Shown here in pieces: positions 7,327 to 45,043 of a DNA stretch of 63,297 bases (positions are counted from its first letter, which is position 1; each line of letters begins with the position of its first letter). Source of the DNA: Bacteroidota bacterium (GTDB lineage: Bacteria > Bacteroidota > Ignavibacteria > Palsa-1295). The notes below the pieces were generated by a model. The model had not been told where the DNA came from. It worked only from the letters and a program-made list of their open reading frames with translations, and made no database searches. The stretch covers positions 1 through 63,297 of the forward strand of contig JAUZNX010000018.1 of assembly GCA_030706745.1 (NCBI GenBank), read 5' to 3'. Both the position numbers and the translations under genes were made by a program.

Positions 7327-8291
7327 GAAAACAGCAACTCGAGAACGGCCATGCGCACGGCCACGCCCCGCTTGACTTGACGCAGCACCAGCGAACGCTC
7401 ACCGTACGCAGTCTCGCTATCGAGTTCGATGCCGTGGTTGATCGGTCCCGGATGCAGGATGAGCGCTTTCGAGCGTGACATCCGCTCGGGCGTCATGCCG
7501 TATTGCGCGCGGTACTCTTCAAGACTCGGGAAGAATCCGCGCGCCTGACGCTCGAGTTGAATTCGAAGCATCATGATCGCGTCCGCCGTTGGAAGCACTT
7601 CGTCCAGATTCGTGGTGGTCTTGATTCCAAACACTTCAGCGGCATCGCGCGGCATCAGCGTCTCCGGCGCAACGAACGTCACTCGGGCGCCCAGCGACTT
7701 CAACAGCCAGACATTCGATCGCGCCACGCGCGAGTGGAGAATATCGCCGACGATCGCGACGTGCTTGCCGCGCAAAGCGCCCAACGCTGTACGCATTTCG
7801 GCGGCATCGAGCAATGCTTGTGTCGGATGCTCATGCGCGCCATCACCGGCATTGATAACGTGAACGTGCTCGGGAAGATGATCGGCAAGAAACTGCGGAA
7901 TGCCGGCAGAAGCATGGCGCACGACGATCGCATCCAACCGCATCGCTTCGAGCACCCGAACGGTATCCAGCACCGACTCCCCTTTCGAAAGGCTGCTGAC
8001 GGCTGGTGTAAGCGTCACGACATCCGCGCCTAACCGCCGCTCGGCAAGCTCGAATGATGTCCGGGTGCGCGTGGAAGCCTCGAAAAACAGGTTCGCAATC
8101 GTGTAGCCTTTAAGTATTGGCTCCCCCTCCTGCGAGCGGAGCGAGATAGGAGGGGGCTTGGCCATCGCCCACGATGGGGTGGTCCATCGACCGGGGCGTT
8201 TTAGAAGCTCTAAATAGTAATCGCTTCGGTCGAGTAGGGTTTGGGTGGTCTCGGCCGGCAGATGCTCCGTGGTGAGAAGGTCTTGCCTCAC
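7314..8291 (-). CDS. pyrB: Aspartate carbamoyltransferase with an inserted palindromic peptide
   Basis: The catalytic chain (325 residues) joins carbamoyl phosphate and aspartate to N-carbamoyl-aspartate, the second step of pyrimidine synthesis. Carbamoyl-phosphate binding is shown by FFEASTRTRTSFE (residues 69-81) and the SKGES loop. HPTQALLD and a C-terminal LHPGPINHGIE are the other family signatures. Residues about 31-59 (around WTTPSW, PPPISLRSQEGEP) have no counterpart in the family and sit just before the normally invariant KGxTIANLFFE strand. They are encoded by a palindromic repeat at 8123-8156 and its flanks. The frame and all active-site segments are intact, so the enzyme is likely functional. 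The stop codon lies in another repeat. No regulatory pyrI gene is present. Confidence 0.93.
   Translation of the reverse strand: MRQDLLTTEHLPAETTQTLLDRSDYYLELLKRPGRWTTPSWAMAKPPPISLRSQEGEPILKGYTIANLFFEASTRTRTSFELAERRLGADVVTLTPAVSSLSKGESVLDTVRVLEAMRLDAIVVRHASAGIPQFLADHLPEHVHVINAGDGAHEHPTQALLDAAEMRTALGALRGKHVAIVGDILHSRVARSNVWLLKSLGARVTFVAPETLMPRDAAEVFGIKTTTNLDEVLPTADAIMMLRIQLERQARGFFPSLEEYRAQYGMTPERMSRSKALILHPGPINHGIELDSETAYGERSLVLRQVKRGVAVRMAVLELLFSITS
8123..8156. repeat. Palindromic element inserted in frame within pyrB
   Basis: CCCCCTCCT at 8123-8131 pairs with AGGAGGGGG at 8148-8156, enclosing the smaller palindrome GCGAGCGGAGCGAG. It encodes PPPISLRSQEGE (residues 46-57 of PyrB). Aspartate carbamoyltransferases lack this segment. 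The bases on either side (about 8115-8200, with CATCGCCCACGATG and GGTCCATCGACC) are also repeat-like and probably belong to the same insertion. Confidence 0.75.
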
Positions 8292-8334
8292 AAGTGGCCG
8301 AGTTAAGCCGATTTCGAGGCAGATTGTTCCAATG

Positions 8335-8390
8335 GTGTAGGCGCGACCTCCAGGTCGCGCGTAAGGGCGAGCTGGAGCTCGCCCCTACAC
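8335..8390. repeat. 56-bp double-palindrome repeat, copy 1
   Basis: GTGTAG...CTACAC ends frame two internal palindromes: GCGCGACCTCCAGGTCGCGC at 8341-8360 and GGGCGAGCTGGAGCTCGCCC at 8365-8384. A second copy at 10576-10631 differs at one position. The two copies, in direct orientation, bracket the Asp-box gene between them. The core GACCTNNAGGTC is shared with the inverted repeat inside rnhB (24669-24746). Confidence 0.85.
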
Positions 8391-8395
8391 ACCGC

Positions 8396-10507
8396 TTATT
8401 GCATCAACAAAATCGGCAGCGAACGCACCCCATCCCGCGTGTGAACGATGCACTCATACAGCCCAGGCGCAACACCCGAAGCGTCCCAAGTGAAGCTGTG
8501 TGGCCCTGCTTCCAGCGTGCCTGAGAATAACCTTGCCTTTTCGACCCCAAGCGAATTGAATACTTTGAGTTCGACACCCTCTCGCAAATTTGCATCATAC
8601 TCAATGCTCACCCGATTGAAGAATGGATTTGGCGATGCTCGCAATGTGAACCCCAGCGGGACTGCACTTAACCCTTTGACTGACAACCCGGAGATCATCT
8701 CCCCAAGTGGCCGCCGCCAAACACCACTCGAACCGGCAAACAAATCATACTTGCCGACTGCTAGCTGTCTGACCACTGCAAACTTCGGCAAGCCGTCGTC
8801 GACTCTATGCCATGATCCACCGAGATCGCTGGATTGAAAGATGCCTGCCGAATCATAGCCAAAATCCTGCATTATGTCGATTGCTGCTGCGAAGAGATTT
8901 GTCCCCTTCGACTCTAGGTCAAAGACTTCCCAGCCAGGTGAGCCCCCACCATCCTTCCCCCAGTCTGTTCTTGTCCAGGTGGTACCGCTATCTGCTGAAA
9001 CGTAAATTCCTACAGCCGCGGCAACAAAGAGCCTGCCACCAGTTGAAATGATTCGATTGATTCCAGAAGAGTACATAATGCGCTCGGTGTCAGGCCAACT
9101 CTGCCCATCATCGCTGGACCGAAAAAGATGTGTAACACTGCTGACAAGCACGTACCTACCTAGTGTTGCAATCTCATTAATCGGATAAGAGCCTGACACA
9201 GTTGACTTCTGATTCCAGGTTACTCCGCTGTCTGCCGAACGAAACAGTGTCGTGCCACACGCTGCAAAGACAATCGAGTCTGTGGATAACAACGCGGTGA
9301 CACCTATATCAGTTAGGCCTACGTTCGATGTGTTCCATGTAAACCCTCTATCGGTGGATCGCAATATCCCATTGTCGGAGCCTGCCAGAAAGATTGCGCC
9401 AATGCTGGCGAACGACGATACGGTCTTTATCCCATTTGGAGTGTTTGGTCTATACCACGTCGAACCAGCATCCGGTGAGATCCAGAATCTATTCTCGGCA
9501 TTCGCAAATATGGTACTACCCTCCGCACCGAGTGCATAAATGGATTGCGCAACAATACCAGTATTTGCATCGAGCCATGACAGCCCGGAGTCTGACGTGC
9601 GAAACATCCCCGACAATCCACCACAGATCACTGTATTCCCACAAGACACGAATGCATTCGCGTATTGAGCGACGGTGCTATCAACTAAGGTCCACGTTCC
9701 ACCATGATCGGTTGATCGAAATATGTTAACAGTTGACCCTGCATAGACCACATTGTGATCGGCGAAGATCGAGCTGAATTGACGACTTGGAGAAGCAGAC
9801 AATAGAATGTCCCAGGATTTGCCTTCATCAGTCGAATGATACACACCGCCGGAAGTCGCGGACCACACCCCCGAACTATCCGCTGCAAATTGATGGATAT
9901 TGAGCGTAGAATAACCGCAGTTGATCCACGTCCAACTTGTATCGTTCAGACTCATGCGGAAGAGGCCACTATCGGTCCCGACAATGAGAGTAGTATCGCG
10001 CGACACAAGCGTCAGCCCCCTGCGGTTTTCCGGCAGTCCACGATTACAAGGAAGCCACAGATCGCCACCATTCGTCGTGCGGGATATCCCGCGGTTTGTC
10101 GCGGCAGTCACCGTATTTGTGGAGATAACGATAGAAAACACGGTTTCTCCTGATAGTCCGAGATAATTCCACGTGACTCCGGCATTCGTTGAGCGATAGA
10201 GCCCACTATCCTGAGTTCCCGCATAGAGAGTGCGATTGTCGAGAGCGAGCGACCAAGTATTGCCCAATCCCAACCCTAACCAGGCCGTAGCCGACCAGCT
10301 CACTCCAGAATCGGTTGATTTGAACACACCAGCTCCTGTGCCGGCGTATACCGTCGCCCCGTCGGAGACTAATGATGAAACCGACCCACCATACGGTCCA
10401 CGGGTTCGAACCCACTGAGCCGACGCCGATGATGTTACTCCAACAACCAAAATGGAAAGCGTGGCCGCAATCGCAACCACGGACGAGAACGAAGATTTTG
10501 AACTCAT
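8396..10507 (-). CDS. Secreted Asp-box (BNR) protein with T9SS sorting domain
   Basis: A 703-residue exported protein. The ATG at 10507 gives a signal peptide (MSSKSSFSSVVAIAATLSIL, cleavage after SASA). The longer open frame to 10660 reads through the 56-bp repeat and is rejected. About a dozen Asp-box motifs (STDSGVSW, STNAGVTW, STDEGKSW, STDHGGTW, SADSGVTW and others) span residues 40-610, enough for two propellers. A T9SS-type C-terminal domain starts near residue 620 with RASPNPFFNRVSIEY and ends GLYECIVHTRDG...ILLMQ, close to that of the protein at 559-1770. It is divergent from uvrA and alone in its orientation between two direct repeats, so it may have moved as a unit. The binding target is unknown. 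Confidence 0.85.
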   Translation of the reverse strand: MSSKSSFSSVVAIAATLSILVVGVTSSASAQWVRTRGPYGGSVSSLVSDGATVYAGTGAGVFKSTDSGVSWSATAWLGLGLGNTWSLALDNRTLYAGTQDSGLYRSTNAGVTWNYLGLSGETVFSIVISTNTVTAATNRGISRTTNGGDLWLPCNRGLPENRRGLTLVSRDTTLIVGTDSGLFRMSLNDTSWTWINCGYSTLNIHQFAADSSGVWSATSGGVYHSTDEGKSWDILLSASPSRQFSSIFADHNVVYAGSTVNIFRSTDHGGTWTLVDSTVAQYANAFVSCGNTVICGGLSGMFRTSDSGLSWLDANTGIVAQSIYALGAEGSTIFANAENRFWISPDAGSTWYRPNTPNGIKTVSSFASIGAIFLAGSDNGILRSTDRGFTWNTSNVGLTDIGVTALLSTDSIVFAACGTTLFRSADSGVTWNQKSTVSGSYPINEIATLGRYVLVSSVTHLFRSSDDGQSWPDTERIMYSSGINRIISTGGRLFVAAAVGIYVSADSGTTWTRTDWGKDGGGSPGWEVFDLESKGTNLFAAAIDIMQDFGYDSAGIFQSSDLGGSWHRVDDGLPKFAVVRQLAVGKYDLFAGSSGVWRRPLGEMISGLSVKGLSAVPLGFTLRASPNPFFNRVSIEYDANLREGVELKVFNSLGVEKARLFSGTLEAGPHSFTWDASGVAPGLYECIVHTRDGVRSLPILLMQ

Positions 10508-20068: not shown

Positions 20069-22351
20069 CTATTTTCCGATGATAACTAACTTCGCCGCGC
20101 CATTATCCGAGGCTTGCGGCGATGTGGCCGTCACGAGGTACTCCCCGCTTGTCACTTGCCGGCCCAGATCGTCGCGGCCATTCCAGGTGACGATAGAGCC
20201 AAGATTCGTACCATTGATCGATGCCACAAGTTTCCGATCGAGCGTGAAGATCTTGACGGTTGAACCAGCAACCAGCCCATCGATGTAAACAGTCGGGCTT
20301 GTCTCTCGGGTCTGCACGATCGGGTTGGGGTACACCCGGATCTGGCTGTAGTCTGGTTTGCCCTGCTTGAAGAGCGTACTAAAGCGCGAAATTCCGGACG
20401 GCGTTCCAGCGTAGGCCTCGCCGCGCCCTGGATCAAGCGCGATTGTGTAAATTGTATTATCGATCAGCGGCGAATTCTCTTTCGTAAAATGCGCGACCGA
20501 ATCGGAGCCATCAGGCGATACGACAAAAATCCCGTTTTCGGTACCAATCCACTTATTGCCGACGCCATCGGTGGCCATCGCGTGAATGATTTGGAACTTC
20601 AAAAAGTCAACTGGCCGGATAATCAAATCTGGATTGGGCTCCAGGATCGCGTACGGATTCGATATGATTTGGAGTCCATAGGAGGTTCCACACCAGATTT
20701 CATCATCCTGATCGGTCAACAGCGCATTCACGTAATTGCTTGCTAACGGATGTCCGGAGCCTCCGGCGATATTGCCATAGGCATGCGTGGACATGTTATG
20801 CCAGGAAACTCCGGCGGGAGCCGGCGCATCTTGCCAGAAGAATCCTCCGGCCCAGAAGTTCCCTTCGTGATCTTGCGTGACGCAACCCCACGAATCATAA
20901 GCATCAATAAGCTTATAATTGGTAAAGTGATAGGTTGTCCCTGGGTCCATCACGGATAGGGCTTCTCCCTGACCCGCATACGAAGTCAGCACGATGCGTC
21001 CGCTATTATCCAGAATGGGCTGGCCGGGCGCGGAAAGAAATTCCGAATTCGGATCTTTGTAATCACTCGTGGGCAAGCCATTATGATGCACATCGATGGT
21101 TTGAAAACTTGGCGATGCACCACCAATGCCATGCAAGACAATCGGATCGCCGGTCGTCATCAACCACGTAACATCTCGGACCGAATCATAGAAGATATTC
21201 TCCCATTTTACATTAGGGATCACGCCTGCGTCGTTTCGGTAGTTAGTCCATTTTTCGCTGTCCGGCTGGAATAGTCCAATGCCATCGCCCTTATTCGCCA
21301 GATAGAGCTTGTCGGTTGCAGATGAAAAATAGAGATCCGCAATCGTATTGCTAATCGGTCCCGCGGGGAAAATACTGGTATGAATTGAATCACCGGCCGA
21401 GTATCCAATCCCGCTCGATGAGGTGCCAAGGACCAGCGTTACATACGGTGCCGGGCTCAGAGCATTTACATGGCTTCCGAGGGTGCTCGCAAACGGCTCG
21501 AGCGTGAAGTTTTGCAGATCGTGTGTAGCGGTAACGTTGCCGAGACTATCGAGGATGTATAGGGTATCGCCGGATGTAGCGAGGCGGTCGATGCTCGCAT
21601 GAAACGAAGTCCTCACAAGGGACAACCGATTGGCAGAGACCGTATACAGCCCGGTGGACGTACCGACGCACACATTGCCACCCAAGGACGCGAGTGTCAT
21701 AACCAGGCCAACACTATCGGTCGTCAACGACCAGCTTGATGGGGTTGGAAGATCGCTATCCTTGGGAGCAGATGCCAGCGCGCTCGGAAGCGCGGCAAAG
21801 ATGTACCCACCCGCAACAATCGCTTGACGGACACTGTCACCTCGATGCGCATTACTTCCAAGTTGAGCTACGGTCGTCGCATAGTATGCGCCGCTTTTCC
21901 GGTACACCTCGAGGCCATAGGCCGTCGCAATGATGATACTATCCCCGTTAACCGCGAACGAATTAATTGCCTTTCCCGGATACCCCGAGTGTTGAATGTC
22001 GCTGCCAAGTTTCTCGATGGTTCCCTTCGAACTATGATAGACATCGAAGGCGCCGGTGCGACCACCCAGATATGTGTCTCCTCCATCCGAGGCGACGGCG
22101 GTCAAGTCATTTTCCGAAAGGCCGTCTGTCGTTCGGAGTGCAACGATTGGCTCGCCGGGATCGCGAAGACTCACGCGGAACGCACCGCCTCCGGTCGCAG
22201 CCCAAAGATGAAGGCCGTCACCAGCGACTGCTATTGCCCGGACGTCCCGCATCGAAGTGTAACTACGCCACTCACCCGGCTTGAGGGACTGTGCGTGAAT
22301 CGGAGAAGCAACGGCCAAACCGATTAGAACTACTCGAAGGATTAACTTCAT
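20069..22351 (-). CDS. PorZ-like two-propeller protein (T9SS-associated)
   Basis: A 760-residue protein with a signal peptide (MKLILRVVLIGLAVASPIHA). Propeller blades of the ligand-binding sensor type are seen (GLHLWAATGGGAFRV, LATSGDTLYILD, GNFWAGGFFWQD, DEIWCGTSYGLQII, GNKWIGTENGIFVV). The last 90 residues (IDGLVAGSTVKIFTLDRKLV, VTWNGRDDLGRQVTSGEYLV, KLVIIGK) follow the pattern of the C-terminal domain of PorZ, the T9SS cell-surface protein that delivers anionic LPS to the attachment complex in Porphyromonas. Length and architecture also match. The assignment is by pattern, so a general two-component-regulator-propeller protein is the alternative. It sits 6 bp after ribH in a housekeeping operon. 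Confidence 0.6.
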   Translation of the reverse strand: MKLILRVVLIGLAVASPIHAQSLKPGEWRSYTSMRDVRAIAVAGDGLHLWAATGGGAFRVSLRDPGEPIVALRTTDGLSENDLTAVASDGGDTYLGGRTGAFDVYHSSKGTIEKLGSDIQHSGYPGKAINSFAVNGDSIIIATAYGLEVYRKSGAYYATTVAQLGSNAHRGDSVRQAIVAGGYIFAALPSALASAPKDSDLPTPSSWSLTTDSVGLVMTLASLGGNVCVGTSTGLYTVSANRLSLVRTSFHASIDRLATSGDTLYILDSLGNVTATHDLQNFTLEPFASTLGSHVNALSPAPYVTLVLGTSSSGIGYSAGDSIHTSIFPAGPISNTIADLYFSSATDKLYLANKGDGIGLFQPDSEKWTNYRNDAGVIPNVKWENIFYDSVRDVTWLMTTGDPIVLHGIGGASPSFQTIDVHHNGLPTSDYKDPNSEFLSAPGQPILDNSGRIVLTSYAGQGEALSVMDPGTTYHFTNYKLIDAYDSWGCVTQDHEGNFWAGGFFWQDAPAPAGVSWHNMSTHAYGNIAGGSGHPLASNYVNALLTDQDDEIWCGTSYGLQIISNPYAILEPNPDLIIRPVDFLKFQIIHAMATDGVGNKWIGTENGIFVVSPDGSDSVAHFTKENSPLIDNTIYTIALDPGRGEAYAGTPSGISRFSTLFKQGKPDYSQIRVYPNPIVQTRETSPTVYIDGLVAGSTVKIFTLDRKLVASINGTNLGSIVTWNGRDDLGRQVTSGEYLVTATSPQASDNGAAKLVIIGK

Positions 22352-30716: not shown

Positions 30717-32534
30717 CTATCGCTCGATAGAGAGCGTGCGGGTTTGTGCATTGCCATTGGATGAACACCGGAGATAGTAGATGCCAGATGGGAGCGGTGC
30801 AACATCGAGTGCCAGGTCGTTCGAGCATTCGCCGCGAAGACGCTCGGTGCCGAGTGCATCATAGAGCCGGTACTCGATAGAAGAACCCGCTTCGCCAGCA
30901 AAAGTTACGGCGACCTCACTCTGCGCGGGATTCGGTACGACGCTCACGATGCGGAACAGAATCGAATCCGCCATGAGCTGCCGCAAGGTGTTGTCGCCGC
31001 AGCCTTGGATTGCAATTGTAACGGAATCTCCGCCGCCGAGCGCGAGTGTGGCGCAGCCGGCGCGGGTGGGTGGGCCGATGAAGTGGATGCTGTCTAATAC
31101 AAATTGTGCTGAGGTGTTTTCGGACACGAGTGTGCGAAAAAATAGCTGCGCGATGTGGCCGTCCATCGTGCTGTCTCTGCGCTTGAAGACAAGCCGCAAG
31201 TAACCCTCCGAACTACTGGAATCGAATAGCAGCCAATTAGGTGAAGACTGAATTTGCACAAGCTCCGACGACATTGTATCATAGCGCATCCGAAACGAGA
31301 TAGTATCATAGCCCGGCACAAGCTGAGACAACCCGGCATCCAACCGCACCGTGTCCCCGCCACGAATGCGCACACCATTCACTGATAGCTGCACATTCGC
31401 CACTTCGAGCGAATCGAGATTGAGCATCCAAAGATGATAAGTGAAAGGCGGAAAATTCAGGCCCGTTGAGTCCGTCGATGCCATAAATATCTTGCTGCCG
31501 TTCACCCAAGACCTGCGTCCGAAGATCAGTGGCTGACTGACCGGACCTCCAGTATATCGCCACGTGTTGCCCTGGTCAGTGGAAAGATAGCAGCCCTTCT
31601 TTATTTGGACGAAAAGATGGCAAAAATCCCCGCGAATACAGCCGGTACTCATTACGTGAAACGCATCGGGTGTGGCCTCCTTTTGAGGAAATGGGACCTC
31701 TCTCCAAGTGTCCCATGCGTCGTCGCTCACAAAAACCGCTGCACTAAGGTCCGTGATAGCGAACTGTGTGCCGGTGCCTTTGACCGCAAGTGGCTGCCAG
31801 CACTCGCTGTCCATAGCAATCGAACGCCAGTTATGTCCGCCGTCCGTCGTGCGCGACCAATGAGTCGTCCCAGGCGCAAAACCCGCATATTGGGACGTCG
31901 CTACTCCTAAATTTCCATTGGCGAACTCATAGCCTGCATGATAATCGTCCATGACGTGTGTCCATGTCGTACCCTCGTCCCAGGACGTGAATTGGTATTG
32001 CGTGCCGTGGGCATTTGTGAACAGCCCACCACTACTGCTGTCGAACGCAACGGATCCACACAGAAAAGGATCGGGCAGATTTCCGTTGCCGATTCTCTGC
32101 CACTTATCACCACCGTTGGTCGTTTTGAATATCCCGTAGCCATCCGCAAGCCATCCTATAAGGCTATCCTTGAATACGATGTCCCGAATGTCAAATTGTT
32201 GGGCGGTCGTGCCGAGATCACCGTTGTAAAGCCCCTTCCACGTTGTACCTCCGTCTGTCGTCTTATATAAGATCGGCTGGGTCCATGTATAGAAGGCGGA
32301 TGCGGCGAAACCGATTTCGGGATGGCCTTGATTGTTTAGAAAGTAAATGGCGCCAAAATCGCCTCCATCGAGGAGCTTCTTCCACTGCCCATCACAGTTG
32401 CGTGGAAAGACGAATTGCACGAATTGCATCAATACAAAAGCGAAAGGCATCCAGCCCCTCTTCGTGAGGAGCTGGGCGCTGTTAAGTAAATTGCCATCGA
32501 CTCTTAAGAACCGATTGAACTCTCTCTTCGACAT
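30717..32534 (-). CDS. Secreted Asp-box-like protein with T9SS sorting domain
   Basis: 605 residues. The N-terminus MSKREFNRFLRVDGNLL is long for a signal peptide; a start at 32450 (MPFAFVLMQFVQFVFP) would give a more ordinary one ending NCDGQ. Asp-box-like repeats run through the first 350 residues (TTDGGTTWKGL, TTNGGDKWQRI, SWDEGTTWTHV, TTDGGHNWRSI, STDQGNTWRYT), followed by a beta-rich module with LDSLEVANVQLSVNG. From about residue 525, VVPNPAQSEVAVTF to GIYYLRCSSNGNAQTRTLSIER is a T9SS C-terminal domain. Function is unknown; it is probably surface-attached. It lies 21 bp after the YadA-like repeat gene and is probably co-transcribed with it. Confidence 0.82.
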   Translation of the reverse strand: MSKREFNRFLRVDGNLLNSAQLLTKRGWMPFAFVLMQFVQFVFPRNCDGQWKKLLDGGDFGAIYFLNNQGHPEIGFAASAFYTWTQPILYKTTDGGTTWKGLYNGDLGTTAQQFDIRDIVFKDSLIGWLADGYGIFKTTNGGDKWQRIGNGNLPDPFLCGSVAFDSSSGGLFTNAHGTQYQFTSWDEGTTWTHVMDDYHAGYEFANGNLGVATSQYAGFAPGTTHWSRTTDGGHNWRSIAMDSECWQPLAVKGTGTQFAITDLSAAVFVSDDAWDTWREVPFPQKEATPDAFHVMSTGCIRGDFCHLFVQIKKGCYLSTDQGNTWRYTGGPVSQPLIFGRRSWVNGSKIFMASTDSTGLNFPPFTYHLWMLNLDSLEVANVQLSVNGVRIRGGDTVRLDAGLSQLVPGYDTISFRMRYDTMSSELVQIQSSPNWLLFDSSSSEGYLRLVFKRRDSTMDGHIAQLFFRTLVSENTSAQFVLDSIHFIGPPTRAGCATLALGGGDSVTIAIQGCGDNTLRQLMADSILFRIVSVVPNPAQSEVAVTFAGEAGSSIEYRLYDALGTERLRGECSNDLALDVAPLPSGIYYLRCSSNGNAQTRTLSIER

Positions 32535-32555: not shown

Positions 32556-35500
32556 TTACGGTCTTGCGCAGACCTTGAAGAAGAATGGCAAATCGGCATC
32601 CGTGCAAATATGGGCCGAACCGCTCCCCGAGTAGGTCCGCACGATGAACATCGTATATGGTGCTGCGGAGATAAGGTGTGAGGCTGTCGCGTAGCCGCAT
32701 GTCCCCACCGCAACGGTGGAATCGGCGTCGTCATTGATTGTGACCGTAACAGATCCATGAGCGAACTGCTGTAGCCCGCGAGCATCTGGAAGCTGCGTAC
32801 TCGGCCGCACGACATAGACGCCCGCCGACGGGTTCGTGACGTATGCTACACCGAAATCGTCGTTTACGAGGCCACCCGCGCTGACATCACCCCACGCAAG
32901 GATCGTATTATCGTTGTAGGTAGCGCCGTAGATTGGGTATCTTCCTGGAGTCCCGAGAACGACGTGGGAATTGTCGTTCTGATCGAACACGACGGAGTGC
33001 CCGTCATACGACCATTCGCCGGCATTGGACGTGCCACCGACAGCCGAACCATTTCCGATAGCGAAAATTGGTGCATCCATAGCCGTGCCGCCGTGGGCGT
33101 AGTCGAGCCGCGATTGATATGCAACGCTACCGGCCGGTACGTTGTAAGCGCCAATGACGGTTTGCGCATAGCTTTGGGCCGTGAGGTGGTCCCCCGCGGG
33201 GATCGCAGCCATTACGCCCGTGGAGTTAATCACGTTGCTATCGCCCGCGCCTATGAAGGCAGAGCCGAGCCCATTGGCAAGGGCGGTCGTGAGACTCAGG
33301 TTCGCCGAGTTTCCCCGACCAGCCACGATCGCATTTTCGCTACCGCCAATGAGCCTATTGCTGTCCCCAGCGCCAATGAAATCGCCATCGTCCTCACTTC
33401 GATTATTTTGGCCTGCCCCGATAAAGGAGTACGCTTCATCGATTGTATCAAAGACACCCGCGACGATTGCTGAAGCGAAGGCCGGATCCGCAGCGAAATC
33501 CACTCCAGCCCCATCTATGATATTGTTCTCTCCCGCGCCAATGAAGTTCGAGCGCCCCAGAGACGAGTTGATCGTAGAGATTGTATTATTGTGGCCCGCG
33601 ATAATTGCTGAAAAGCGATAATAATTCTGGATCCAGTTATCTTGTCCGCCTCCGATGAACGAGTATCCGGATGCATAATCAATAGCGTTGTTCTTCCCAC
33701 CAGTGATCGAGGCATAAACTGATGCTATGCTGTTATGTCCGCCGCCTCCGATCATCGAATACGGATTGTATTCATAGATAGCATTGGAGCTCCCGCCGGC
33801 AATGACTGAGTGTTCGGAGCCTACAAAGATACTATTCGTGTCGCCCCCGGCAATTACACAGTCACCACTAGCGATTATATTCTGCTCACCGGAAACGATA
33901 CTAGAATTATAACTTCCCTGCGAGAGAGAGTTCGTAGTTCCTGCTCCAATAAAGCTGTTATCGCTTCCCTGCGCGATCGAATTCGCATTACCCGCTCCGA
34001 TGAATGCTGCCGGGCTGCCTGCCGCGTGAGTTGCATCGGCACCAAGGATGCGATTGCTAAATCCGCTCGTGATGGCCGAGTATGGACTGGCGGAGTCGAT
34101 CTTGTTTTGGTATCCAGTCGCGATCAGTGAGTTGATGCTTCCGTTGGCAATCGTATTGAATTCACCCGCGATAATCGCAGCACCATTCGCTGCGACGGAG
34201 TCATTCGCGCCAGAACCGACGAACGAGCTGGCTCCAGTGGTGGCATTCGAGCGTCCGGCGACGATACCGGATGCGTCGGCATACGCGACGTTGCCGATGC
34301 CGTTGATCCCTCCCGTCGTACCGGCAACCACTGCGGCATTCAGGCCGTAGACGCGGTTGAGGGTGCCTCCTCCAATGAACGAGGAGCCGCCCGTCGGTCC
34401 GATGGAGTCGTAGTTACCCGCTCCAATGAATGCGTTAGTTGCGGTGCTATCGATCCAGCCGTGATACCCCGCTGCGATGGCTGCCATGTTGCCAAGATTG
34501 CGGTTGGCCATACCTGCGCCAATGAACGCTTTCGAGCCATAAGCATAGTTGGAGTCTCCCGCGACGATGCCCGAGTGTCCCCACCTCGTGGCGGTATTCA
34601 CATGTCCCGCCCCAATGAAGGAGTTTGGCGCTGAATCATCGACATGGTTCGAATCGCCACCGGCGATTGATGCGGATGCGCCATTTAGCAAATTGTTCGC
34701 TCCGCCAAGTATTGCGCCATCCGCATTGGGCCATCCATCAACAATATTATGATGTCCTCCAACGACTATGCCGCCGTTTGAAGTTACCTTGTTCGAGTCC
34801 CCTCCTCCTATGAAGCCCAGCGGCCCCGTTCCCGAGATATGATTACCCAGACCTCCGACAACTGATCCAAAATTCGCATCTACGTGGTTGGCTTGTCCAC
34901 CGCCAATGAACGATGTATCCCCGATGATCACGTTTGTATCGCCGCCAGCAATTGCATCATAATTCCCCCATGCCTTATTGTTCGCGCCTCCCCCTACAAA
35001 ATCGTGACCATTGGTCTCAGGAGCTCCGAGTGGTCGGTCCCACGCCTCATTATTTGTGCCACCGACAACCGAGTTCGTGCTTGCGGGATTACTCGGTCCG
35101 AAGGTGCCGTCGTCTGTGTTCGGCGAGACGGCTGGTTGGTACCCGATAAAGCTCGCCTGCGGATGTCCGATGGTGAGGCTCGATGTTGCCGAGTCGTATC
35201 TGAGCGAGAGATCATCCGCCGAATGGAGATTGAGGATGCTCCCATGTCCGGTGAGCCGGTAGCCATCCACGTTGATCCCGGCAATATAATCAGTCGCCAG
35301 CTTTGCGGCCGTAACCGCGCCATCGGCAAGTTTCGCTGTGGTAACCGCATTATCGGCGACGTTCAACGCATAAGCGGACGCCGTGACTTGCGCCAGTGGC
35401 CTCATTTCAGTACCGCCATCAATAGCTACGCCGAGCCAAAGTGGGCGGTCGAGCGCCTGGGTTTCGGGCAATGGATTGTCCGGCGTCCCAAGCTGGACGC

Positions 35501-35780
35501 TAAAGACACCATCCGGACCGACCGTGACCATCATGGTTCGTTGCCAAAGTCTCGCCGTGCCGTTTTCATCGGCATAGAGCGAGATTGTAAGTAACCTGTC
35601 TCCTATAATGGGAGCCGCCTCCTTTCCGTTCACATCCGTTGGACGCAAGACGCCCTGATACGAGAGCGTGCGTGGTGTCGTGGCGATCGAAGGATGCCCC
35701 GGCTGGGCATGAATCCCTCTGACCGCAAGGATACTAAGTAGCAGCATGGCTGCAACGAGTTTGGTCTTAGAATGTCCCAT
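32556..35780 (-). CDS. Secreted YadA-head-like repeat protein
   Basis: 1074 residues with a signal peptide (MGHSKTKLVAAMLLLSILAV). Residues 35-165 form an N-terminal module common to tail-fibre-like secreted proteins (LSYQGVLRPTDVNGK, ASAYALNVADNAV, TTAKLADGAVTAAKLA). Residues about 210-900 hold about three dozen repeats of the form (S/A)FIGAGxxNxI or IIAGGxxNxI, with a step of roughly 14-24 residues. This resembles the left-handed beta-roll of YadA/Hia trimeric adhesin heads. The C-terminus (SVTVTINDDADSTVAVGTCG...FFFKVCARP) resembles neither a YadA anchor nor an obvious T9SS signal. It is likely an extracellular filamentous or adhesive protein, possibly trimeric. It is first of a two-gene run, preceded by a hairpin 12-31 bases before its ATG. 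Confidence 0.75.
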   Translation of the reverse strand: MGHSKTKLVAAMLLLSILAVRGIHAQPGHPSIATTPRTLSYQGVLRPTDVNGKEAAPIIGDRLLTISLYADENGTARLWQRTMMVTVGPDGVFSVQLGTPDNPLPETQALDRPLWLGVAIDGGTEMRPLAQVTASAYALNVADNAVTTAKLADGAVTAAKLATDYIAGINVDGYRLTGHGSILNLHSADDLSLRYDSATSSLTIGHPQASFIGYQPAVSPNTDDGTFGPSNPASTNSVVGGTNNEAWDRPLGAPETNGHDFVGGGANNKAWGNYDAIAGGDTNVIIGDTSFIGGGQANHVDANFGSVVGGLGNHISGTGPLGFIGGGDSNKVTSNGGIVVGGHHNIVDGWPNADGAILGGANNLLNGASASIAGGDSNHVDDSAPNSFIGAGHVNTATRWGHSGIVAGDSNYAYGSKAFIGAGMANRNLGNMAAIAAGYHGWIDSTATNAFIGAGNYDSIGPTGGSSFIGGGTLNRVYGLNAAVVAGTTGGINGIGNVAYADASGIVAGRSNATTGASSFVGSGANDSVAANGAAIIAGEFNTIANGSINSLIATGYQNKIDSASPYSAITSGFSNRILGADATHAAGSPAAFIGAGNANSIAQGSDNSFIGAGTTNSLSQGSYNSSIVSGEQNIIASGDCVIAGGDTNSIFVGSEHSVIAGGSSNAIYEYNPYSMIGGGGHNSIASVYASITGGKNNAIDYASGYSFIGGGQDNWIQNYYRFSAIIAGHNNTISTINSSLGRSNFIGAGENNIIDGAGVDFAADPAFASAIVAGVFDTIDEAYSFIGAGQNNRSEDDGDFIGAGDSNRLIGGSENAIVAGRGNSANLSLTTALANGLGSAFIGAGDSNVINSTGVMAAIPAGDHLTAQSYAQTVIGAYNVPAGSVAYQSRLDYAHGGTAMDAPIFAIGNGSAVGGTSNAGEWSYDGHSVVFDQNDNSHVVLGTPGRYPIYGATYNDNTILAWGDVSAGGLVNDDFGVAYVTNPSAGVYVVRPSTQLPDARGLQQFAHGSVTVTINDDADSTVAVGTCGYATASHLISAAPYTMFIVRTYSGSGSAHICTDADLPFFFKVCARP

Positions 35781-35893: not shown

Positions 35894-35928
35894 TGGGACG
35901 AGCAACGCAATTGCTCGTCCCATTTTTT
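35894..35928 (+). terminator. Intrinsic terminator facing the plus strand, without an upstream gene
   Basis: TGGGACGAGCAA and TTGCTCGTCCCA form a perfect 12-bp stem with a 5-nt loop, followed on the plus strand by six T. On the minus strand no U-run follows. All neighbouring genes are on the minus strand, so it would end an unannotated plus-strand RNA starting within or before 35781-35893. Confidence 0.65.
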
Positions 35929-38404: not shown

Positions 38405-41400
38405 TTATTTGAAGAGCCATACACGCAATAGAGACAATAGCTGATCGACATCAACCGGCTTTGTAATATAATCCGAGGCTCCGGCTTCGATGCATTTCTC
38501 GCGATCCCCGCGCATGGCCTTAGCTGTTACCGCAATAACTGGCATCGATTTCAACCGTTTATTCCGGCGGATTTGCCGCATTGCCTCGTAACCATCCATT
38601 CCCGGCATCATGATATCCATTAGGATGACATCGAACTCCGGACTCTGATTCAGCTTGTCGAGTGCTTCCTGACCGCTTTCCGCATAGCTGACTTTCATAT
38701 TGTGTCGTTCGAGAAAGCTGGTGATCGCAAAGATATTGCGAATATCGTCGTCGACGATCAGTACCCGTTTGCCAGCCAATAACACATCGTTGGTATGAAG
38801 ATTATCGATTCGTCGCCGTTTTTCCTCCGGAAGGTTCGCATGCGCTCGATGCAGAAAGAGCGCCGTCTCATCAAGCAATTTGTCGACAGAGTTCATGTCC
38901 TTGACGATGATGGATTCCGCAAGCTTATTCAGTTGCGAACTCTCCTTTTTCGTCAACTCTCGACCGGTATATACCACGATCGGTAAATCGGCAAGCCGGG
39001 AGTCCTTTCGGATGTTTTCAATCACTTCGAAGCCTGACATATCCGGCAAAGTCATATCTACGACCATGCAATCGAACTGTTCTGATTTCACTCGTTCGAG
39101 TGCTTCACGTCCGGTGCCGATCGAAACCAGTTCAACGTCCTGCCCTCCATCGATCATGTCTGCAATGGATTTCCGGTCGTTCTCGTCGCTCTCGGCGACT
39201 AGCAATCGCTTGACCGGCCGCGAGATGAACTGGCGCATCCGTTCCAGCGATTCATTTACATCATCCGGAGAAACCGGCTTCTGCAAATGGGTAATAGCCC
39301 CCATTCGCTTGCGTCGTGGAAGTCTGTCGACGACCGAAACAATGTGTACCGGAATATGTCGTGTTGCCGGGTCGTGCTTGAGACGATCGAGCACGGCAAG
39401 CCCATGAATGCCCGGCAGCAGAATGTCGAGCGTGATCGCATCCGGCTTGTAGCGTTTGGCATAGGCCAACCCCGTCTCACCCCGGCTGGCGTGAATGACC
39501 TTAAACTGCTTATCGTGAGCCATGTCGAGTAAGATCGCCGCGAATTTTGGATCATCTTCGATCACCAGCAGCAAGCTGTCACCCGGTTCAATTTGATCTC
39601 GATCATCTTCGATCTCTTCGGGATCCGCACTCGTTGCAGTCATTTCATTAGAGCCAGAACTGGTAGCAAGTTCTTCCCAGGCGGCAATTGAGTTCTTCGC
39701 TCGAAATCCATTGCGCTCGGTCGGCATGGAAATTCTCTCTATGCTCCCAGCCGAAAATTCGCTTGAATTCCCGTTTTCATTCTCGTGCGTCCCCATCGTG
39801 GTCGGCACGTAGTTCTCCGGTAGATAAAGGGTAAACTTGCTCCCCTTTCCTGGCTCACTCGAAAGCTGAATCTCGCCGCCGAGTAACCGAGCGATCTCCC
39901 GGCTGATCGAGAGCCCGAGACCCGTGCCGCCATATTCGCGGCTCGTCGTACCATCTGCCTGTTGGAATGATTCAAAAATGACACGGTGCTTCTCGGCCGG
40001 AATTCCAATGCCAGTATCGATGACAGAAAGCCCGACCACGGCTGAAGCTTTGTTCAGCAGTTCGTTGCCGAAGAACATGTCATCTGGGGCGCGCCGGATC
40101 TCAAGCTTCACACCGCCGGTATGAGTGAACTTGAACGCGTTCGAAAGCAGGTTCTTCAGGACCTGCTTCAGGCGTTTCTCATCTGTCATCATTTCTTCCG
40201 GCACATCCGAGGCCCGCATGAGATCGAACGTGAGTCCTTTCTCCTGGGCCACACTTTCGAACGTCCGGTGCATGTCCTCTTCAACTTCGCTCAGTTGGAC
40301 CTGCCCGACATCCACCGCCACCGTGCCAGACTCGATCTTTGACAGGTCGAGGATCTCATTAATAAGTGCAAGCAAATCGGCTCCGGAAGAATGAATTGTT
40401 TCAGCGAATTCGATCTGCTTGTCCGTTAGATTGTGCTCCGGATTCTCTGAGAGCATCTTCGAGAGGATCAGCATCGAATTCAGCGGAGTCCGCAATTCAT
40501 GCGACATATTCGCCAGGAATTCGCTCTTGTATTTCGAAGTCAGCACCAACTGTTCGGCCTTTTCTTCGAGTGCTCGACGCGCCAGTTCGATTTCGCGATT
40601 CTTGCGCTCCACTTCGGTCTTTTGTTCGCCCAGCAAACGCGCCTTGTCCTGAAGTTCGTCGTTCGTCTGCTGGAGTTCTTCTTGCTGCTTTTTGAGCAGC
40701 TCTTCTGAAGCTTGAAGTGACTTTGCCTGCTGTTCGAGACGGCGATTTGTCTCTGTCAGCTCTTGCTGCTGGGATTGCAGTTCCTGCGTCAGCGATTGCG
40801 ATTGCGCCAGCAGTGCTTCCGTCCGCATGTTCGCTTCGATTGTATTCAAAACGATTCCGATCGACTCCGTCAATTGATCGAGGAATGCAAGATGGATCTC
40901 GTTGAACGCATGGAAGCTTGCCAGTTCAATAACGGCCTTCACCTGGCCTTCAAAGAGTACCGGCAACACCACAATATTCAGCGGAGCCGACTCACCAAGG
41001 CCAGAATTGATTTTGATATATTCGCTTGGGATTCCGTTGATGACAATGCGTTCTTTCTCCAACGCGCACTGCCCCACCAACCCTTCTCCAAGTTTGAACT
41101 GATTCGATAAATTCTTTCGCTCTTTATAGGCATAGCTCGCAAGCAGCTTCATGACCGGCTGATCACCTGTCGACTCTGAAATATAAAACACACCGTGCTG
41201 CATATTGACGAGTGGTGCCAGTTCGCTCAGGATCACGCGCGAAACCGTCCATAAGTCCTTTTGCCCCTGCAATAGTCGAGTGAATCTTGCAAGATTCGTT
41301 TTGAGCCAATCCTGTTCGGTATTCTTTCGAGTAGTATCCTTGAGGTTGCGGATCATCTCGTTTACATTGTCCTTGAGATACGCAACTTCACCCGCCGCTT

Positions 41401-44400
41401 CGACCGTGATCATTCGGGAGAGATCGCCCTTGGTCACAGCCGTAGCAACTTCGGCCATGGCGCGCACCTGCGTTGTCAGGTTAGCCGCGAGACGGTTTAC
41501 ATTATCAGTCAAATCTCTCCACGTTCCGGCGGCCCCCGGCACATTCGCCTGTCCACCGAGTTTTCCTTCGATACCGACCTCGCGCGCAACTGTCGTAACC
41601 TGATCGGCAAACGTCGCGAGTGTATCGATCATGGCGTTAATCGTATCGGCAAGTTCGGCGATTTCACCCATGGCCTCCACAGCAAGTTTGCGCTTCAGAT
41701 TTCCATTGGCGACCGCGGTAACGACTCGCGCAATTCCGCGCACTTGCGTCGTGAGATTTGCCGCCATGAAGTTTACATTGTCGGTCAGGTCCTTCCAGAC
41801 TCCGGCAACACCTCGCACTTCTGCCTGACCACCCAACTTACCTTCGGTGCCTACTTCGCGGGCCACACGGGTTACTTCCGATGCGAACGAATTGAGCTGG
41901 TCCACCATCGTATTGATTGTGTTCTTTAGCTCCAGGATCTCGCCCTTTACATCTACCGTGATCTTCTTGGACAAATCACCATTGGCCACGGCAGTCGTAA
42001 CGTTTGCGATATTTCGCACTTGGCCCGTGAGGTTCGAGGCCATGAAATTTACATTATCGGTCAAATCCTTCCACGTTCCAGAAACACCTTTTACATCCGC
42101 CTGGCCGCCAAGTTTTCCTTCGGTACCTACTTCGCGCGCCACACGGGTTACCTCCGATGCGAATGAGTTAAGTTGATCGACCATCGTATTGATCGTATTC
42201 TTCAACTCGAGGATCTCGCCCTTTACGTCGACCGTGATTTTCTTCGACAAATCTCCATTCGCCACAGCCGTTGTCACATTTGCGATATTTCGCACCTGTG
42301 CCGTAAGGTTCGAGGCCATGAAATTCACATTGTCCGTCAAGTCCTTCCAGGTACCCGAGACACCTTTTACTTGCGCCTGGCCGCCGAGCTTTCCTTCTGT
42401 ACCGACTTCTCGGGCGACGCGCGTTACCTCAGCCGCGAATGACGAGAGCTGATCGACCATCGTGTTGATCGTGTTCTTCAGCTCCAAAATTTCGCCTTTC
42501 ACGTCCACCGTGATCTTCTTGGACAAATCTCCTGTCGCCACAGCCGTGGTAACTTCTGCAATGTTTCGCACCTGAGCCGTCAGGTTACCGGCCATCGAGT
42601 TTACATTGTCTGTCAAATCCTTCCACACACCCGCCACACCACGGACTTCGGCCTGACCGCCCAATTTGCCATCGGTTCCTACCTCGCGGGCCACACGGGT
42701 TACTTCGGAGGCAAACGATCCGAGCCGATCGACCATCGTGTTGATCGTATTCTTCAACTCGAGAATTTCACCTTTTACATCGACAGTGATTTTCTTCGAA
42801 AGATCACCATTCGCCACAGCCGTCGTGACATCGGCGATATTACGCACCTGACCGGTGAGGTTCGAGGCCATGAAATTCACATTGTCCGTAAGGTCTTTCC
42901 ATGTACCGGCGACGCCTTTCACTTCGGCCTGACCGCCAAGCTTGCCTTCCGTACCGACTTCACGAGCCACACGCGTAACCTCTGCCGCGAACGAGTTAAG
43001 CTGGTCCACCATCGTATTGACCGTGTTCTTCAGCTCTAAGATTTCGCCTCGAACATCTACCGTGATTTTCTTCGACAAATCACCATTGGCGACCGCTGTG
43101 GTAACCTCCGCAATATTACGCACCTGAGATGTCAGGTTCGCAGCCATGAAGTTCACATTGTCGGTGAGGTCCTTCCACGTACCAGCGACGCCTTTCACTT
43201 CCGCTTGACCGCCAAGCTTTCCTTCCGTGCCCACTTCTCGGGCAACACGAGTCACTTCGGCAGCAAACGATGAAAGCTGATCGACCATTGTGTTGATCGT
43301 ATTTTTCAACTCCAAAATCTCACCTTTAACATCTACCGTAATCTTCTTCGACAGATCGCCATTAGCGACCGCCGTCGTAACTTCGGCAATATTACGCACC
43401 TGCCCCGTAAGATTCGAGGCCATGAAATTTACATTATCCGTAAGGTCCTTCCAGACGCCCGCAACCCCTTTTACATCGGCTTGTCCGCCCAGTTTTCCTT
43501 CCGTACCGACTTCACGGGCGACACGAGTTACCTCAGCAGCGAAACTCGAAAGCTGATCGACCATCGTATTGATCGTATTCTTCAGCTCCAGGATTTCCCC
43601 TTTTACATCGACTGTGATTTTTTTAGAAAGATCACCATTGGCTACCGCCGTTGTAACTTCCGCGATGTTACGCACCTGGCCTGTAAGGTTCGAGGCCATG
43701 AAATTCACATTATCGGTAAGGTCTTTCCATGTACCCGAAACGCCCTTCACAATGGCCTGTCCGCCGAGCTTTCCTTCGGTACCTACTTCACGGGCCACAC
43801 GAGTTACTTCCGAAGCAAACGAGTTAAGCTGATCAACCATCGTGTTGATCGTATTCTTCAGCTCCAGGATCTCACCTTTCACATCCACCGTGATCTTCTT
43901 GGACAAATCACCGGTCGCAACGGCCGTCGTAACCTCCGCAATATTACGGACTTGCGCCGTCAGGTTCGAGGCCATGAAATTCACATTGTCTGTCAAATCC
44001 TTCCATGTGCCCGAGACACCCTTAACCTGCGCCTGACCACCAAGTTTCCCTTCCGTACCTACTTCGCGGGCTACACGAGTTACTTCCGATGCAAAGCTCG
44101 AAAGCTGGTCGACCATCGTATTGATCGTATTCTTCAGCTCCAGAATTTCGCCTTTTACATCCACCGTAATCTTCTTCGAGAGGTCTCCATTCGCCACTGC
44201 TGTCGTCACCTCAGCAATGTTACGCACTTGACCTGTCAGGTTCGAGGCCATGAAGTTCACATTGTCCGTGAGGTCTTTCCACGTTCCCGAAACGCCCTTG
44301 ACAACGGCTTGTCCACCAAGTTTCCCTTCTGTACCTACTTCGCGGGCCACACGGGTCACCTCCGATGCGAACGAGGCAAGCTGCTCGACCATCGTATTGA

Positions 44401-45043
44401 CCACCTTGCCCGTCCGAAGAAACTCACCCTTGAGCGGCCGACCTTCAATTTCCAGCGTCATTGTTTGCGATAGATCTCCCTTGGCCACACTACCGATGAC
44501 GCGAGCAACCTCCGTCAGTGGCTGTGCCAGATCGCTAATAAGAGTATTCACGCCCTCGACGGCGACCGCCCATGCGCCAGCCGCATTCGGAAGCGCCGCC
44601 CGCTGGGTAATCTTACCTTCTTTGCCCACAGCCGCACTCGTTCGCTCGAGTTCGCGAACCAGACTCTGGTTCATTTCGATGATCTCATTGAGCTCCTGTG
44701 CGATCCGGTACGTCAGCGGATCCGATACGGCCAGCGTCTCATCCACATTGAACCGCGAAGCGAAATCACCCTTCCGGACTGCAACCAATGTAGAAAGTAA
44801 TCGGCGGGCCGCCATCGTATCGATCTGCTCCGTACGTACCTTTTCATTCGGACTGTGGCCATTTGACCCGCTGTTACCCGACGATCCGAGTGTAAGGCTG
44901 CCGGTCCCAATCTCGCCCAAAGATGATTGTTTAGCTTTACGTCCCCTCATACCAGCCTTGTCGAAGGATTGATTTTCTGTAGCACGACTGCGGATACCAT
45001 CTCCGTTTTCGTTCGACAGTTTGCTCGTCATCTTTGATTTCAT
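38405..45043 (-). CDS. Giant poly-HAMP hybrid histidine kinase with three receivers
   Basis: 2212 residues, soluble, with no membrane helix. A polar Ser/Gly-rich N-terminus (1-78) is followed by 13 HAMP-type GDLS units between about 85 and 1225. Ten consecutive units from residue 234 to 1153 repeat exactly every 92 residues ([13 protein letters not shown]...[14 protein letters not shown]...[18 protein letters not shown]). A GAF domain (about 1235-1405) and coiled coil (to 1500) follow, then the phospho-His in [13 protein letters not shown] near 1515 and a HATPase ([40 protein letters not shown]). Three receivers near 1820, 1945 and 2090 carry [24 protein letters not shown] and [12 protein letters not shown]. 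The plan resembles fungal group III (Nik1/Os-1) osmosensing kinases and their bacterial relatives. The ligand and target regulator are unknown. Confidence 0.93.
41585..44344 (-). repeat. Ten tandem 276-bp coding repeats (HAMP array)
   Basis: The core of the giant kinase gene is ten units of exactly 276 bp (92 codons). Protein copies are near-identical: they vary mainly at VSGTW/VAGVW, at SSFAS/NSFAA and at the residue after GGQA. DNA copies differ at many third positions, so this is an old array under protein-level selection rather than a fresh amplification. An eleventh, more divergent unit follows from residue 1154. Confidence 0.93.

Follow-up and report, generated by a model that had tools for sequence, protein, structure and literature searches.

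The Fibre Gene and Its Downstream Neighbour

The gene described here lies on the minus strand at 32556..35780 of a 63,297-nucleotide stretch of DNA (contig JAUZNX010000018.1, positions 1 to 63,297, assembly GCA_030706745.1) from a Bacteroidota bacterium of the class Ignavibacteria; this whole stretch is called the window below. From an ATG start, the gene encodes a protein of 1074 residues that we read as a secreted fibre of the MAT type, with a shaft resembling the heads of the adhesins YadA and UspA1. A signal peptide was judged by eye at residues 1-25 (...GIHA/Q; 35706..35780, minus strand), and a lipobox scan was negative. The predicted beta-sandwich that follows at residues 34-133 (35382..35681, minus strand) opens with TLSYQGVL, was delimited from an AlphaFold2 model, paralogues and NCBIfam, and is referred to as the SYQG domain. 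Then come a linker, recognized in the sequence at about residues 139-162 (35295..35366, minus strand) and reading NVADNAVTTAKLADGAVTAAKLATDY / NVADNAVTTAKLADGAVTAAKL, where NVADNAVTTAKLADGAVTAAKLATDY is presumably like the linkers of phage tail fibres; a shaft or head of ∼37 beta-roll repeats of 15-17 residues, defined by a repeat matrix, a profile and the model, at residues 237-875 (33156..35072, minus strand); and a C-terminal tip region at residues 875-1074 (32559..33158, minus strand), in which a beta-sandwich covers residues ∼954-1074 and has FFFKVCARP as its terminal strand.

A second gene on the same strand (30717..32534), termed the partner, starts 21 bp downstream of the fibre gene, with which it makes up a two-gene unit, and encodes 605 residues. 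Its product was characterized with Pfam, NCBIfam and a PDB profile, and contains a signal peptide (by eye), an Asp-box (BNR) beta-propeller whose relatives in the PDB are xyloglucanases, Ycf48, sortilin and sialidases, a middle beta domain (cohesin-like by eye), and, at residues 534-602 (30729..30935, minus strand), a Por_Secre_tail domain, the type A sorting domain of the type IX secretion system (T9SS). The sorting domain exceeds the cut-offs of both Pfam (PF18962, 32.1 vs 27 bits) and NCBIfam (TIGR04183, 30.9 vs 23 bits), and with its Sec signal the partner qualifies as T9SS cargo. The genome also encodes the T9SS translocon SprA, and at least 150 T9SS sorting domains were counted in it. 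In the window itself, a 760-residue protein (20069-22351, minus strand) ∼10 kb from the fibre gene matches PDB 5m11 (Immunoreactive 84kD antigen PG93) over residues 51-749 with E 9.5e-22; we take PG93 to be the T9SS component PorZ, which would make this protein a PorZ homologue.

The Shaft

The initial annotation had described about three dozen repeats of the type FIGAGxxNxI forming a YadA-head-like beta-roll, and the repeat counts agree with it. A lenient motif gave 31 copies within residues 201-900, whereas 1000 shuffled sequences averaged 4.3 and never exceeded 12, and a strict motif, xI[GAV][AG]GxxN, gave 18 copies against a shuffled mean of 0.07 and maximum of 2. A position matrix, trained on those very repeats, detected 37 of them, far beyond the shuffled sequences (mean 1.8, maximum 6, 200 shuffles), and placed them 15 or 17 residues apart in 27 of 36 cases.

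When a profile of 26 related C-terminal halves was compared with the PDB, the UspA1 head was matched at E 1.1e-21 (3pr7), and a second UspA1 entry at E 6.9e-7 (3ntn), so the term YadA-head-like is valid at the sequence level; the YadA_head model of Pfam itself does not match the fibre protein. Structure comparisons of the shaft and the tip were made with an AlphaFold2 model of residues 700-1074, which has a mean predicted local distance difference test score (pLDDT) of 76. In VIA alignments to this model, 3pr7 reached Z 13.9 (2.8 Å over 161 residues, 25% identity) and CbpF reached Z 12.3. Because the profile match to UspA1 and the model alignments to 3pr7 and CbpF point the same way, the predicted structure of the shaft is a beta-roll of the YadA-head type, as had been annotated. 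By analogy with the known family, the shaft would be a trimer. One phage record, the tail fibre of Cyanophage Cy-LDV1, showed weak similarity to the repeats (query residues 353-440).

The C-Terminal Region

The fibre protein matched zero families in Pfam, NCBIfam and PHROGs at E<=10, in scans where the HMMER filters discard most matches above E ∼0.1. These profiles therefore detect no YadA anchor at the C-terminus of the protein, and no T9SS sorting domain either. In particular, Pfam and NCBIfam gave neither Por_Secre_tail nor a type B C-terminal domain (CTD) there at E<=10, and YadA_anchor was found neither in the fibre at E<=10 nor in the genome at E<=0.001, although it was detected in control E. 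coli. The annotated description of this end as neither a YadA anchor nor a clear T9SS domain stands, since the profile search across known anchor and sorting families placed it in none of them. An anchor or sorting domain at the C-terminus was rejected, with zero support from the profiles, and so was the classification of the fibre as a type Vc autotransporter, because the YadA anchor was not found in the protein or the genome.

The last 120 residues are predicted to form a beta-sandwich, with 11 of the 13 final ten-residue blocks at pLDDT 84-97 and the other two at 55 and 73. The best solved structure for the tip was the tail fibre of phage AP22 (4mtm; Z 5.5, 2.7 Å, 80 residues, model residues 254-374), and a Foldseek search of the viral models in BFVD returned 37 matches at E<=0.001 (best 3.9e-6), of which the named ones are phage proteins, including tail fibres. 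Several observations count against a phage-like tip. Unrelated Ig-like structures such as IL-12 (Z 4.6) outrank both BclA (3.8) and the Bdellovibrio MAT tip Bd2439 (3.4), so that among the structure matches of the tip only 4mtm deserves weight. The BFVD matches came without aligned ranges and were assigned to the tip by length, several of them spanning repeats too, and a Foldseek search of the fibre model against the PDB gave zero matches at E<=0.001. On these models, a fold like that of phage tail-fibre tips is weakly indicated, and is a best reading rather than proof.

Since the C-terminus resembles phage tail-fibre tips, albeit weakly, and the N-terminal domain is the part kept across paralogues, the C-terminus is probably a distal tip rather than the site of a missing anchor. 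The mode of export and attachment had been annotated as unclear. Export is indeed not obvious, but the C-terminus was probably the wrong place to look for the anchor, the N-terminal domain being the part that is kept. The possibility that the fibre is a phage gene was considered and rejected, given a single weak phage match and the absence of phage families among the 11 other window proteins scanned.

The N-Terminal Domain

AlphaFold2 modelled the blocks of the SYQG domain at pLDDT 85-98. The domain is also present in 25 other proteins of the genome (99.5% complete), where it is joined to many different shafts and C-termini, and one further genomic place (C3:65980) was found with the MAT model. 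At E<=0.01, the NCBIfam model NF053851 (Bdello_MAT_N) was matched by 12 of the 26 members of this SYQG family, and at E<=10 by 32 of 38 N-domains, with a best value of 2.3e-8. The fibre's own link to the MAT proteins runs through homology to the paralogues that match NF053851, and with 12 of 26 family members matching, the best reading is a distant fibre of the MAT type. This assignment has to be weighed against four results: the fibre protein itself is unmatched by NF053851; every match in the genome stays below the curated 60-bit cut-off; at E<=10 the model also responds in 1 of 14 control genomes; and the structure matches of the N-domain are generic Ig-like folds only. A comparison of the N-domain with the PDB by sequence gave nothing convincing. 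We also considered a fold like that of T9SS CTDs, because the mirolase CTD (8qb1) aligned with Z 6.5, but it is tied with many Ig-like folds and such a fold is not claimed.

Judging from the MAT proteins and from its constancy across paralogues, the SYQG domain is placed at the cell, and by this analogy is a probable cell-proximal anchor. In four of the paralogues, the first 100 nt are 95-98% identical and the N-domains 69-88%, while the tips are only 24-34% identical; the fibre of the window is more distant from those four (N-domain 36-38%, tip 26-39%). From these sequences, the cell-facing end of the four appears to have been homogenized while the tip diverged, as expected for a fibre with exchangeable binding ends. 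Beyond this genome, the SYQG profile has matches at E<=1e-8 in 60 of the 119 relatives searched, which points to MAT-like N-domains being widespread in the class.

Within the SYQG family of the genome (n = 26), one member has a strong match to collagen repeats (3e-42) and one carries a capsule-lyase C-terminal domain (1.1e-24). The S74 family was found in none of the 26 members, two of which are incomplete at a sequence or contig end, in a Pfam scan at E<=0.01.

Linkage of the Tip and the Partner Gene

Five homologues of the partner were detected in the genome at E<1e-80, with the next at 1.8e-30, and each of the five directly follows one of the five fibre genes that have this tip (5/5). Among the other SYQG genes with a readable downstream neighbour, the propeller partner was present in 0/19; for one of these 19, only the first 678 residues of the downstream gene were covered, and gave no propeller match, and two further SYQG genes were left out because the sequence or contig ends before the downstream neighbour. 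Calculated after the fact, a random draw of five paired genes from 24 would give this arrangement with a chance of 1 in 42,504. With at least 150 sorting domains in the genome, a T9SS-sorted neighbour alone is less remarkable, and it is the recurrence of the same subfamily five times that counts. The partner gene is thus genetically linked to this tip type. The initial annotation mentions neither the partner nor the SYQG family of 26 genes. Two paralogues that have 16 and 13 FIGAG-type repeats but other C-termini lack the partner.

A search of 245 genomes yielded 31 strong tip loci (>80 bits), spread over 10 of the family's 13 genomes; 24 loci are paired with the partner, 6 are unpaired and 1 lies at a contig end. 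These loci were collected by their tip, which calls for caution about the linkage of tip and partner, and since the profiles used (A5 and A6) came largely from previously known loci, the 31 do not amount to a new sample; whether a partner adjoins was determined from the DNA at a later stage. Twelve weak tip matches of other families (24-56 bits) were left out of this count, and none of the genomes holding them appears in the partner table at E<=1e-25. Inside the genus, the partner accompanies 20 of 21 strong tip loci; the exception is the locus at the contig end. Named relatives carrying the tip (8 loci) are Candidatus Kapaibacterium, Ignavibacteria/Ignavibacteriae and Bacteroidetes metagenome-assembled genomes (MAGs).

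Pairing survives drastic changes in the fibre, since the partner is kept at L118, where only a signal-like start and the tip are left, and at L083, which encodes a mini-fibre of 315 residues. Because the repeat-bearing paralogues with other ends lack the partner while L118 and L083 keep it, it is the tip, and neither the shaft nor the N-domain, that the partner tracks.

Four results weaken the case for a functional pair. Outside the genus pairing is incomplete: the other genera of the family have 10 strong tip loci, of which 4 are paired. Three close (>400 bits) and five weaker (266-322 bits) partner homologues stand apart from any such fibre, and stand-alone partners may be undercounted, as the partner table holds six candidates per genome; one more homologue begins at a contig edge. 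Fibre-partner distances among the five pairs of the genome correlate only with r 0.18. Over 20 pairs the Mantel r was 0.45 (0 of 5000 permutations), uncorrected for species relatedness. A mirror-tree argument for contact between the two proteins was rejected, because r 0.45 is inseparable from species relatedness and the correlation within the genome is so low.

Several unusual arrangements were noted among the relatives. Downstream of one unpaired tip fibre (G010:C140), after 65 bp, is a gene for a 419-residue protein (L087, 3360-4619, plus strand) that carries a T9SS type A sorting domain (40.8 vs 23 bits) on a different body and is perhaps a replacement partner. In relative G001, two fibre genes (L081, 322-1272, minus strand; L118, 5586-6329, plus strand) have no N-domain and contain almost none of the repeats. 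Their first 137 bp are 92% identical and code for a signal-like MLPKR[LH][IL]TLSFFA joined to the tip region. An 83-bp part of this start is found again, at 81%, where a stand-alone partner gene (L110) begins, a pattern suggesting that tip modules may have been moved by recombination. In G004, which is without such a tip, a gene beginning MDFYLGQVILFAGSYVPQNWALCNGQ is followed by a partner homologue (7578-9401), the two lying within L109, 5175-9401, plus strand; the first gene looks to us like that of a phage tail-collar protein.

Comparison with Known Fibres

The MAT proteins of the predatory bacterium Bdellovibrio bacteriovorus, which grip its prey, are described as surface fibres whose signal peptide is followed by a conserved domain of ∼130 residues and whose tips are diverse; the source leaves open what holds the N-domain on the cell, and states that predatory and other strains may use MAT-type fibres (PMC10769870). 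The fibre family described here is similar in having a signal peptide followed by a conserved beta-rich domain, a fibre of ∼1000 residues, diverse C-terminal ends, and a large set of paralogues per genome (26 or more, compared with 21 in B. bacteriovorus). It differs in that the similarity of the N-domain is remote, below the NF053851 cut-off, the shaft is of the YadA/UspA1 type, S74 gave no match in the Pfam scan of its 26 members, and a T9SS-sorted partner is linked to one tip type. With the trimeric autotransporter adhesins YadA, UspA1 and CbpF, the fibre shares head repeats homologous in sequence and predicted fold, but it has an extra N-domain, a tip-like C-terminus, and no matched C-terminal beta-barrel anchor. 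The fold of the tip domain is weakly like that in phage tail fibres (AP22 gp53, cyanophage fibres), whereas the fibre gene is chromosomal and encodes a signal peptide and an SYQG domain.

Adjacent genes whose products cooperate at the surface are known in the T9SS: sprB and sprF adjoin, one product helping the other at the surface, and PG1035-PorP is a further cargo with its own neighbouring partner (PMC9143113). There, the adhesin has a type B CTD and its partner is a PorP-like barrel (PMC9143113), whereas here the adhesin is without a CTD and it is the partner that bears one, of type A. Searches of the open-licence literature listed no paper that deals with a T9SS partner for MAT fibres, or with such fibres in Kapabacteria.

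Model and Alternatives

Taken together, these results lead us to favour, with some reserve, a mosaic trimeric adhesin fibre of the MAT type, which has an autotransporter-like shaft and is linked to a T9SS-sorted partner. Its signal peptide would direct Sec export across the inner membrane, and the SYQG domain would remain next to the cell and hold the fibre on the outer membrane. Three chains would wind into a long beta-roll shaft like the UspA1/YadA head, as the repeat homology and the trimers of that family suggest, and the C-terminal domain may cap the fibre as an outward binding tip, in keeping with its faint resemblance to phage tail fibres. The partner would be displayed on the surface by the T9SS and would most likely act with the tip, as a cap, co-receptor or tether. 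Sequence, repeat homology and gene linkage are established by the present data; the trimeric state, surface display, the function of the tip and contact between tip and partner are what we infer for this fibre. The present evidence indicates neither a new fold nor a new secretion system. The significance lies in a genome that has at least 26 MAT-like fibre genes together with a T9SS, and in one tip type that is nearly always accompanied by one partner within the genus; the partner is thereby named as a candidate for handling the fibres, and gives a starting point for the question of how such fibres are held on the cell.

The arrangement could also reflect export in trans, in which the co-encoded partner, bearing the sorting signal, carries or tethers the signal-less fibre by binding its tip. 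The absence of an anchor or sorting domain from the fibre in profile scans fits this proposal, as do the above-cut-off CTD of a partner directly downstream in 5/5 cases, the presence of SprA, and the different T9SS-sorted protein that follows unpaired G010:C140. Anchoring at the surface through a neighbouring gene also has a precedent in SprB with SprF (PMC9143113). What makes us think export in trans unlikely is that sister fibres sharing the N-domain but bearing other tips lack a partner in all 19 testable cases, and that six fibres with this tip, from other genera, stand without a propeller partner next to them. B. bacteriovorus is not known to have a T9SS. Its MAT fibres reach the surface (PMC10769870), and together with the partnerless sister fibres they weaken the proposal. 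We are similarly doubtful of the related in-trans idea that the propeller recognizes the tip and that the two form an exchangeable unit, evolving together on a shared fibre of the MAT type.

The linkage might instead result from co-inheritance only, by duplication of an ancestral segment carrying fibre and propeller, whose products do not interact. Both genes are paralogous across the five loci, recent exchange is shown by the near-identical starts of four of the fibre genes, and the distances of tip and partner barely correlate within the genome, all as expected from such duplication. Nevertheless, identity among tips and among propellers has fallen to 24-42% and yet the two genes have stayed adjacent in nearly all loci of the genus, the testable paralogues with other tips do not carry the partner, and pairing survives the loss of N-domain and shaft at L118, so that we regard co-inheritance alone as rather improbable. 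Very little speaks for the shaft being an ice-binding surface protein: the ryegrass ice-binding protein 3ult is tied with UspA1 in structure (VIA Z 13.7; profile E 3.5e-4), Pfam LbR_Ice_bind is matched by 1 of 26 family members at 1.7e-5, and one named relative is a Kapaibacterium MAG, isolate 'Chersky.7_45', Chersky being a permafrost site, but UspA1 is far better in sequence, the SYQG domain is joined in this genome to many other shafts and tips, and the positions between the repeat cores are variable and have no regular Thr/Ser array, ice-binding faces being regular arrays.

Other Features of the Window

A scan of the window against Rfam gave zero matches. Upstream of the fibre gene, ∼115 nt from its start, is a perfect 12-bp inverted repeat with a 5-nt loop (35894-35922), whose T-run is on the plus strand; among the loci examined, an exact 11-base arm of this repeat occurs only in the window's own stretch. 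At 38405-45043 on the minus strand, a 2212-residue protein contains 10 exact copies of a 10-residue repeat and 10 of WKDLTDNVN, and these repeats precede what by eye is an apparent hybrid sensor kinase.

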